Shown: piece by piece, positions 49,755 to 51,582 of the stretch
Layout of the letters: each line of letters opens with the position of its first letter
Position numbering within the stretch: the first letter of the stretch is position 1
DNA from: Dyadobacter luticola
Lineage (GTDB): Bacteria > Bacteroidota > Bacteroidia > Cytophagales > Spirosomataceae
Direction: 5' to 3'
Assembly: GCF_005860805.1 (NCBI RefSeq)
Contig: NZ_VCEJ01000008.1
Span: 496,001 to 560,000 of the forward strand
Length of the DNA stretch: 64,000 bases
Translations under genes and position numbers: made by a program
Notes under the pieces: model-generated
Databases searched by the model: none
Seen by the model: only the letters and a program-made list of their open reading frames with translations
Told to the model about the DNA's origin: nothing

Positions 49755-49775
49755 TTTGTAGGATTTTCTTACAAA
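49755..49775. promoter_or_regulatory. Palindrome copy 1, upstream of the 69-residue gene
   Basis: Arms TTTGTAGGA and TCTTACAAA with centre TTT, one mismatch from perfect symmetry. It matches the copy at 50016-50036 at 19 of 21 bases. Its left end overlaps a TTTG that could be the -33 element for the -7 at 49781, so a bound protein would block that promoter. Confidence 0.6.
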
Positions 49776-49780
49776 ACTAT

Positions 49781-49788
49781 TATCTTTG
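49781..49788 (+). promoter_or_regulatory. -7 element directly before the 69-residue gene
   Basis: TATCTTTG matches TAnnTTTG and ends one base before the ATG at 49790; a TTTG lies 22 bases upstream inside the palindrome. The message would be nearly leaderless. A second match, TAAATTTG at 49732-49739, would give a normal leader that includes the palindrome. Confidence 0.45.
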
Positions 49789-49789
49789 A

Positions 49790-49999
49790 ATGTCAAAATC
49801 ATTTAGTTCTATCGAAGAGGCATTTGCCTGGTTTTTAGAACATGTATACAAAAATTTGCCACCAGAAGAAAAGAAAGGTGAGTTAGTAAGTGCCTGGCGC
49901 AGTTTTACATTCAAGCAGGGTATATCTCAAAAAAAGATGATTTCTATTTTGGAGCGATATGGTTTTGACGTGAATGTTTCAGTAACATATAAAAAGTAA
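49790..49999 (+). CDS. Small basic protein of unknown function (69 residues)
   Basis: I do not recognise a family. The protein is slightly basic, with an N-terminal amphipathic helix (SIEEAFAWFLEHVYKNL) and a segment KQGISQKKMISILERYGFDV that could be a helix-turn-helix. It is preceded by the first of two matching palindromes and followed by the second, which lies just upstream of the next small gene. Both small genes may be under one regulator, possibly this protein itself. Base composition is more AT-rich than in flanking housekeeping genes, consistent with an accessory cassette. Confidence 0.6.
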   Translation: MSKSFSSIEEAFAWFLEHVYKNLPPEEKKGELVSAWRSFTFKQGISQKKMISILERYGFDVNVSVTYKK

Positions 50000-50015
50000 A
50001 TTTTTTTGCACCGGC

Positions 50016-50036
50016 TTTGTAAGATTTTCCTACAAA
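50016..50036. promoter_or_regulatory. Palindrome copy 2, upstream of the 89-residue gene
   Basis: Arms TTTGTAAGA and TCCTACAAA with centre TTT. The two half-sites are those of copy 1 in swapped order, so the differences preserve the half-site set. It ends 26 bases before the ATG at 50063. Confidence 0.6.
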
Positions 50037-50062
50037 TATTTTAAACTATAACCACTATCAAA

Positions 50063-50332
50063 ATGATCATTGATTCAAATGCTACAAACAACCAAAATCC
50101 TTTGTCAGATGAAGAAGCTAGATTATTAAGAGAGCAGCACGATGTTGTCTGTGAGTTTTTCAAACGAGATAGCAGTGCGGAAATCGTGAATTCTTTGAAT
50201 ACATTGATTGAGGACTTTCTTTTTTCGGACGATGTGGATAATGTCACGCCCGAAATTCGGGTTCATATTGCTAATAATCTGCGGGTTGTGACATTGATCA
50301 CGAAGTTGGGGCAGACGAGGGTGAGGTGGTAG
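50063..50332 (+). CDS. Small acidic protein of unknown function (89 residues)
   Basis: I do not recognise a family. It is acidic and predicted helical (LSDEEARLLREQHDVVCEFFKRD; SSAEIVNSLNTLIEDFLFSDDVDN; PEIRVHIANNLRVVTLITKL). It has no signal peptide or membrane segment. It follows the second palindrome and precedes the Fic gene by 128 bases. An acidic partner for the basic 69-residue protein is possible but unproven. Confidence 0.6.
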   Translation: MIIDSNATNNQNPLSDEEARLLREQHDVVCEFFKRDSSAEIVNSLNTLIEDFLFSDDVDNVTPEIRVHIANNLRVVTLITKLGQTRVRW

Positions 50333-50460: not shown

Positions 50461-51582
50461 ATGAAGAATTTCAAAGCGGGTAAGCATTTCAGTCAGGGAT
50501 ATTATAAAAGTTTCCAGCCTGAGCCTATCAATCGCGATTGGCAGGTCGATGATATGCAGGTACTTAGCCTTTTAAGCCAGGCGGATCGGTATCTTGGGAA
50601 GCTCGATATGTATTCAGAATACGTGAACATTGATTTATATGTTCGGATGCACATTGCTAAGGAGGCGACGCAGTCATCGAAGATTGAGGGCACGCGGACA
50701 AATATGGAAGAGGCGTTTCTTGGGAAAGAGGATATTGCTGCCGAAAAACGGGATGATTGGGAGGAGGTGCAGAATTACATTAGTGCTATGAATGATGCTA
50801 TAAAACAGCTACATACGCTTCCATTTTCATCGAGACTAATTCGGCAGACGCATAAAATTTTGCTGCAAGGCGTCAGAGGAATGCATAAGCAGCCCGGGGA
50901 ATATCGGACAAGCCAGAACTGGATTGGCGGCGCATCGATCAATGATGCGGTATTCGTGCCGCCTGTCCACACTTCGATTGCGGACCTGATGTCGGACATT
51001 GAAAAGTTTGCCCATGATGAACTGAATCAGCTGCCCGACCTGCTGAAAGTGGCGCTGATCCACTATCAGTTTGAAACAATTCACCCATTTTTGGACGGTA
51101 ATGGTCGCGTCGGTCGGTTGATGATTACGCTTTATCTGGTGGATAAAGGGATATTGAAGCAGCCAATCTTGTATTTATCTGACTATTTTGAAAGAAATAG
51201 GACATTGTACTACGACAATCTGATGCGGGCCAGGACGCATAATGACATCAATCAGTGGCTGAAATTTTTCCTGGTGGGTGTTATTGAAATTTCGAAAATA
51301 GGGATCAAAACTTTCGACGGCATTTTACAGCTGCAAAAAACACTGGATGCCAAAATCCAGACTTTTGGAAGCCGAGCAGCAGAAGCCAGGAAGATTGTGA
51401 ATTACTTGTATGAGCAGCCGGTAATTGATGCAGGTAGAATCGAGGCCCTCACCGGCAAGTCAAAAGCAACGAATTACAAAATGTTGGCCGACTTCGAAAA
51501 ACTTGAAATCCTCCGTGAGATTTCTGGTGGGCAGCGTAACAGGCTTTTTATCTTTAATGATTATCTGGCCCTTTTCCGGTAG
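50461..51582 (+). CDS. fic: Fic-domain AMP-transferase, class II with built-in inhibitory helix
   Basis: 373 residues. The Fic active-site motif is HPFLDGNGRVGR (His208-Arg219). An N-terminal helix carries SSKIEG (Glu76), matching the S/T-x-x-x-E-G/N inhibitory motif of class II Fic proteins, so activity is probably autoinhibited. The C-terminal ~90 residues (RIEALTGKSKATNYKMLADFEKLEILREISGG) form a winged-helix-like domain, which may bind DNA. Fic enzymes usually transfer AMP from ATP to protein hydroxyls. The target is unknown. The gene has its own promoter with an overlapping dyad. Confidence 0.92.
   Translation: MKNFKAGKHFSQGYYKSFQPEPINRDWQVDDMQVLSLLSQADRYLGKLDMYSEYVNIDLYVRMHIAKEATQSSKIEGTRTNMEEAFLGKEDIAAEKRDDWEEVQNYISAMNDAIKQLHTLPFSSRLIRQTHKILLQGVRGMHKQPGEYRTSQNWIGGASINDAVFVPPVHTSIADLMSDIEKFAHDELNQLPDLLKVALIHYQFETIHPFLDGNGRVGRLMITLYLVDKGILKQPILYLSDYFERNRTLYYDNLMRARTHNDINQWLKFFLVGVIEISKIGIKTFDGILQLQKTLDAKIQTFGSRAAEARKIVNYLYEQPVIDAGRIEALTGKSKATNYKMLADFEKLEILREISGGQRNRLFIFNDYLALFR

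Follow-up and report, generated by a model that had tools for sequence, protein, structure and literature searches.

The 64,000-nucleotide stretch of the Dyadobacter luticola genome analyzed here (called the window throughout) carries two small genes, A and B, on its plus strand. Gene A (49790..49999) encodes a predicted DNA-binding protein of 69 amino acids with the putative specificity residues S34, S38 and Q43, and gene B (50063..50332) a protein of 89 amino acids that is helical according to its structure model and, by comparative analysis, probably co-transcribed with A. Both open reading frames are present as given in the preliminary description and neither has a significant family match in the libraries searched; the Fic gene reported beside them lies at 50461-51582 (Fic and Fic_N above the cut-off). 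Two palindromes of 21 bp occupy the positions assigned to them, the left one (TTTGTAGGATTTTCTTACAAA, plus strand) at 49755-49775 and the right one (TTTGTAAGATTTTCCTACAAA, plus strand) at 50016-50036, with a start-to-start distance of 261 bp. As described before, they have 19 of 21 bases and the centre TTT in common, 8 of 9 arm pairs are formed in each, and the half-sites TTTGTAGG and TTTGTAAG are swapped between them, i.e. the right palindrome is the reverse complement of the left one except for the centre. They are referred to below as the left and right putative operators. The right operator starts 16 nt beyond the end of the A stop codon, and the TTTG in the left operator fits the -33 element of the A promoter.

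Wide scatter of the palindrome, which had been named as an observation that would speak against its link to these genes, was ruled out by a search of the whole genome (6,407,087 bases). With 0 to 2 mismatches the 21-mer was found only at its two places in the window, and with 3 mismatches at three further places, counting the pattern strand and its reverse (reversed-pattern control: 1). With the five central bases left free and up to 3 mismatches allowed, degraded copies were not in excess, since 160 matches per strand compare with 220 for the reversed control. Scattering over the genome was therefore rejected, and the same scans (up to 3 mismatches; five central bases free) gave no sign of a wider regulon. 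The palindrome of an L058-type paralog in the same genome was likewise found mismatch-free only at its own two places.

Conservation and predicted structure of A and B

Matches to A were found in 31 of the 48 genomes of the genus, with a maximum of 11 per genome, and its profile detected members in 39 of 222 genomes of the family (5 of 36 genera). A sample of 395 genomes of the phylum yielded only the window's own genome and one weak match (E 0.008), and searches of plasmids, phages and IMG/VR viral contigs, each with one A protein as query, did not find A. B was matched in 28 of the 48 genomes of the genus and, by profile, in 16 genomes from a sample of 390 across the order; these 16 belong to a single genus. 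For ten copies at the tyrS locus, the median dN/dS was about 0.03 for A (dS measurable in 22 of 45 pairs) and about 0.08 for B (20 of 45 pairs, conserved core only). Family matches and low dN/dS make both genes look protein-coding; the second observation named earlier as speaking against the link, a lack of protein conservation of both frames, does not apply, as both are found in relatives under purifying selection.

The profile and structure searches proposed for both proteins gave no significant family match and a weak fold resemblance of A to helix-turn-helix proteins. No Pfam family was assigned to A, and its library matches were weak only (PHROGs E 0.087, unknown function; NCBIfam best E 0.049, one of 60 members). 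Neither the PADLOC anti-phage defence models (no match; best E 0.024 with 60 members) nor the PDB sequences searched with the A profile (best E 0.5) identified it. The structure model of A (pLDDT 93.1) consists of three helices (residues 8-18, 31-40 and 47-56) and an extended tail. Foldseek returned no E below 0.001 for this model against PDB and viral structures; VIA-align gave a best Z of 4.6 against known structures with helix-turn-helix proteins among the best rows (Z 4.6, 3.3 and 3.2), which shows neither kinship nor its absence. The model of B is of moderate quality (pLDDT 74.9, three helices) and found no convincing structural match in the PDB (Foldseek, no E below 0.001). Its Pfam matches were weak only (best E 0.0067 with 44 members), the best hit of its profile among PDB sequences was a ParB (E 0.023), and PADLOC accepted no match (best E 0.0017, one of 44 members, type I specificity subunit model); in these Pfam, PDB and PADLOC searches B had no significant match to known toxins.

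Paired sites, predicted promoter and the B slot

The window and 60 fetched loci together comprise 61 loci with 77 A copies, 62 of which are bracketed by matching palindromes. These 62 were picked by a score that rewards half-site match: 65 of the 77 copies reached a value of 30, and L079 and two array-internal L095 copies were removed by hand. Among the 15 unused copies, 11 have another A within 280 nt downstream (two broken), and most of these array copies lack a palindrome pair of their own; the other four (L069, L076, L079 and L096) show one site or degraded sites by eye. The left site starts 32-39 nt upstream of the A start codon and the distance between the first base of the A stop codon and the right site is 17-26 nt. 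The half-sites are mostly TTTGT-NNN, with a spacer of 4 or 5 bp, and the right site is direct with respect to the left one in 25 copies, inverted in 19 and tied in 18 (n=62).

In the window, a -7 promoter element (TATCTTTG, 49781..49788, plus strand) ends 1 nt before the A start codon and lies 22 bp past the TTTG at 49755. Its consensus TAnnTTTG was taken from Bacteroides work as excerpted (PMC7366714, PMC2483708). The motif (at least 5 of 6 fixed bases), ending 1-8 nt before the ATG, was found in 89 of 93 A copies versus 16.6 in shuffles, and because of this short distance A is probably transcribed almost without a leader. A -33-like TTTG, CTTG or TTGT stands 18-25 bp upstream of the motif in 71 of these 89 copies and was not found at the allowed spacing in 18. 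By this sequence-based assignment, the left site is inside the predicted A promoter.

The preliminary description had each palindrome shortly upstream of a small open reading frame. This holds for the positions, but the right palindrome goes with A instead of serving B, because its distance to the A stop is nearly constant and it is also present after A copies without a recognized B. The right site as promoter-operator of B was rejected on these grounds and for the missing enrichment of the -7 motif upstream of B (24 of 62 versus an expected 22.5), which also indicates that A and B probably form one operon. Exact TAnnTTTG motifs on the opposite strand over the B start occur in 20 of 62 loci (5.5 expected); they may mark an antisense promoter or simply result from the CAAAACTATG leader. 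A CCCGG...CCGGG hairpin with an A-run before it comes after the right operator in many loci, among them L060, L077 and L212, and on the opposite strand it would look like an intrinsic terminator. This hairpin is absent in the window; an automatic search counted it, with its A-run, in at least 32 of 117 A copies, the true number being higher because some hairpins seen by eye escaped it.

B was recognized after A in 51 of the 62 bracketed copies and was not recognized within 700 nt in the other 11; among 31 A copies fetched later, none was recognized within 700 nt in 17. In 62 of 66 pairs measured, B begins 52-162 nt downstream of the A stop, counted from its first base. Six of the 11 bracketed copies without B (L061, L062, L077, L084, L104 and L107) carry a different open reading frame of 90-224 codons in the B slot, and the remaining ones a B remnant or no convincing frame. 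Comparison of the B profile with the profiles of two other B-slot groups gave probabilities of at most 37% and single-comparison E values of 7e-5 to 6e-4. The slot holds a Peptidase_S24-like protein in L206 (E 2e-5, above the cut-off) and, in L196, a frame of 202 codons without Pfam match whose end resembles another B-slot group by eye. In three loci of another genus of the family (L218, L219 and L215), operator-A-operator directly precedes integrase-type genes, identified by Arm-DNA-bind_5 and Phage_int_SAM_5 above the cut-off in L218, by Phage_int_SAM_5 in L219 and by resemblance only in L215, where the gene is apparently broken. L218 and L219 have near-identical A genes and leaders and different integrases.

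Covariation of A residues with putative operator bases

In 52 A-B pairs that were not selected for matching, similarity of the left site to its own intergenic region was 0.775 and to those of other loci 0.620; none of 20,000 permutations reached the within-locus value. For the 62 bracketed copies, own-site similarity was 0.909, a value inflated by the selection score favouring matched half-sites, so that the comparison in the 52 pairs serves as the unselected test; similarity was 0.524 to other loci and 0.844 to loci with A at least 80% identical. Paralogs of one genome carry different addresses. Site similarity followed A identity with a partial Mantel coefficient of 0.46 (p 0.001) and B identity with one of 0.13 (p 0.006), and B as the specificity factor was accordingly a weak candidate.

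Sites were located blind to the A residues. Mutual information placed A residues 34 and 43 at the top for base 5 of the half-site, residue 34 above residue 43 in the first, unstratified test; for pairs of similar overall identity, residue 43 came first for base 5 and residue 38 for base 6. Counting half-sites in the 62 copies, K43 went with G at base 5 in 48/48, L43 with T in 12/12, Q43 with A or C in 112/116 and R43 with G or T in 40/40. The register was re-picked with a TTTGT anchor for the test on unseen copies, which shifted the Q43 fit from 112/116 to 116/116. For 93 copies the corresponding counts were 72/72 (K43-G), 28/32 (L43-T), 132/132 (Q43-A/C) and 78/80 (R43-G/T), and at base 6 N38 went with T in 24/24 and D38 with G in 264/312 half-sites. 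G43, present in 13 of the 93 copies, has no single base 5 (A 27, G 14, T 7, C 4). As the A copies are related, half-site counts are not independent.

The residue-43 rule was fixed before the unseen copies were fetched. Of the 40 A hits, nine were excluded (7 incomplete or broken, 2 internal to arrays); the rule covers 25 of the remaining 31, the other six being G43. In the 25 loci, 94 of 100 half-sites fitted the rule (K 24/24, Q 16/16, R 38/40, L 16/20), the two left half-sites of L189 being counted despite its unrecognizable left site; shuffling the residues among these loci gave a mean of 52 and a maximum of 79 in 5000 rounds. By locus, 23 of 25 fitted, the failures being L215 (L43 with A in 4/4 half-sites) and L207 (R43 with A and T, 2/4). 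Seven of the eight loci with less than 75% identity to any earlier copy fitted, a group that L215, at 75% identity, falls just outside. Two recognizable sites were present, as predicted, in 30 of the 31 unseen copies, the exception being L189; in L193 and L221 the left site falls slightly beyond the predicted range.

The window copy (S34/R37/S38/Q43) has TAGG and TAAG, and the other copies with S34/R37/S38/Q43 likewise have A (36/36 half-sites). A natural pair of 82% identity is formed by L061 (K43, core TGTG) and L063 (Q43, core TATG in 3/4 half-sites). Contacts of lysine or arginine with G, of glutamine with A and of leucine with T are familiar from protein-DNA recognition. From this covariation, two or three residues of A appear to spell the address, mainly residues 43 and 34 for base 5 and residue 38 for base 6. 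In the model, the second helix carries residues 34 and 38, separated by one helical turn, and the turn after this helix contains residue 43; for this reason the second helix may be the reading helix. In classical helix-turn-helix proteins it is the third helix, whereas the covarying residues of A are in the second helix and the following turn. We infer from the comparisons that A is a small DNA-binding protein that is probably dimeric.

Proposed regulation, alternatives and significance

Comparison (promoter overlap, matched sites and residue-base covariation over 93 copies) lends strong support to the proposal of a compact autoregulated module in which the palindromes serve a single regulator, possibly the 69-residue protein, as its operators. 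Very probably A recognizes both of its operators and represses the A-B operon. We consider it rather probable that A is a repressor at two bracketing sites, that its address is set by few residues and that B is made upon loss of A. A, probably as a dimer, would recognize the two palindromes around its own gene. Bound to the left site, it would occupy the stretch that separates the -33 from the -7 element and so silence the single A-B promoter; bound to the right site, it would block RNA polymerase before B or loop to the left site. If A is lost or inactivated, B would be made, presumably as an effector or partner, and paralogs in one genome would be insulated by their individual addresses. The sites, their match within a locus, the residue-base covariation, the promoter overlap and the lack of a promoter motif of B's own argue for this scheme, and from them we infer binding, dimerization, repression and the role of the right site. 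The latter would be explained best by an elongation block before the B slot or by a looping partner; a rigid loop was not supported, since the spacing of 258-274 bp shows no clear helical phasing.

A-B pairs recur at a few chromosomal sites, often, by eye, downstream of and parallel to one gene and facing a convergent one. Neighbours at shared sites are PIN/VapC-type (7 of 61 loci), SocA/Panacea-type (5), HigA-like (3) and Fic genes (3), the HigA-like and HigB-like calls being made by inspection with the HTH_60 match of the HigA-like genes below the cut-off. The Fic gene looks incidental to A-B because the sole Fic cluster was found in 3 of 61 loci. HigA-like genes precede A copies in L057, L070 and L080 and, by resemblance, in L095 and L115; antitoxin-A-A-B arrays result in L070 and L115, where the stop of the upstream frame and the A start overlap. 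At the tyrS locus, L071 (G005) and L192 (G010) contain an inverted A-B module that is convergent to tyrS and has asymmetric half-sites.

The preliminary description had offered, as an alternative, a mobile cassette of about 280 bp with the palindromes as its ends and A as its only cargo. Bracketing of A even in copies without B and the matched ends would be expected of such a moving unit. Homology between copies at different chromosomal sites was, however, seen by eye to begin close to the left palindrome and to continue roughly as far as B does (e.g. L086-L090, L064-L090 and L060-L091; viewed were the longest 70 of 1193 pairs without upstream homology, of which some were at the same hotspot and those at different hotspots were judged by eye). 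The relative orientation of the palindromes is inconsistent and the left site keeps its promoter register. In relatives, where a precise presence or absence between the palindromes had been suggested as a check, the losses at the tyrS locus are partial and ragged (L069, L224), G003 lacking the left site and G037 having a truncated A. We regard the cassette as extremely improbable, and the inverted terminal repeats of an IS or MITE were also dismissed on orientation and on the extent of the shared unit. From the homology extents and the ragged losses, the unit that travels or duplicates seems to be left site-A-right site-B and not the interval from palindrome to palindrome.

Scarcely more probable is a reading in which a protein encoded elsewhere binds the palindromes, or in which their effect stems from RNA hairpins or from nothing more than self-complementarity; hairpins could form in read-through RNA, but covariation with specific A residues, which includes the unseen copies, and the different addresses of paralogs in one genome speak against it. 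A closer rival is a type II toxin-antitoxin-like addiction pair with A as antitoxin and autorepressor, B as toxin and other small genes able to fill the B slot, which we judge possible but on the doubtful side. Two small genes in antitoxin-first order, an operator in the promoter, several apparently insulated paralogs and the other frames in the B slot of several loci point in this direction, and operator position and covariation of A would fit the autoregulation of type II antitoxins. The sharing of sites with PIN/VapC-type, SocA/Panacea-type, HigA-like and Fic genes also agrees with it, although hotspot sharing is weak evidence. The A-B gap is unlike that of tight toxin-antitoxin operons, recognized B is frequently missing, as counted above, and B resembles no known toxin significantly, which does not exclude one. 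Peptidase_S24 domains follow the helix-turn-helix in many phage repressors, and B or another B-slot protein might be a sensor or co-regulator of A binding in a split, phage-repressor-like switch and not a toxin. The S24-like protein of L206 and the integrase-type genes after A in L218 and L219 favour such a switch; with few cases, no S24 match for B itself and A not found among plasmids, phages and viral contigs with the single queries used, we think it unlikely.

As an autoregulated A-B operon, the module would work like antitoxin or phage-repressor autoregulation, which does not imply membership of those families. HipB-type antitoxin autorepressors (4pu3, 8ezt) are likewise small DNA-binding proteins with palindromic operators over their own promoter and a downstream partner gene. 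Their structural similarity to the A model is weak (Z 3.3, rmsd 4.3, 58 aligned; Z 3.2, rmsd 4.2, 61 aligned), and the systems differ in that no sequence match was found for A, two operators bracket the A gene, B has no Pfam match and operators vary between A subfamilies. The best structural row was the putative transcriptional regulator NE_1354 (2a6c; Z 4.6, rmsd 4.0, 63 aligned), which is 10% identical to A, and a Z this low may reflect nothing beyond a shared arrangement of helices. Restriction-modification C proteins and phage repressors are autoregulators with diversified operators before a partner gene; A differs from them by having no attached restriction genes and a second operator beyond its own gene. 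RptR, as described in the excerpted report (PMC12255303), is a small repressor of a restriction/toxin-antitoxin island that binds a palindrome at the island promoter, with three direct repeats bound and a minimal site TAGCTA conserved across genomes; the A sites, in contrast, diversify and stand on both sides of the gene. A limited literature search for Dyadobacter with palindrome and operator gave matches that, by title, concern plant-beneficial microbes, and the RptR arrangement, as far as that excerpt goes, differs.

Tentatively, and with somewhat less than an even chance of being right, operator-A-operator could be a portable, self-addressed regulator of a new family of DNA-binding proteins of about 69 residues. 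Two or three residues would rewrite the address in co-evolution with the two sites, many copies would act independently per genome and drive interchangeable downstream genes (B, B-like, S24-like, integrase-type), and the second site would be a built-in elongation roadblock. Natural sequences seldom allow a protein-DNA recognition code to be read off, and close natural pairs such as L061/L063 in a very small family make co-change of repressor and operator directly testable. The module, present in 31 of 48 genomes of the genus, combines a second, bracketing operator with a downstream gene that can be exchanged. The A family could supply compact orthogonal repressors for Bacteroidota and, if the portable regulator is real, would constitute a natural collection of many orthogonal repressor-operator pairs.
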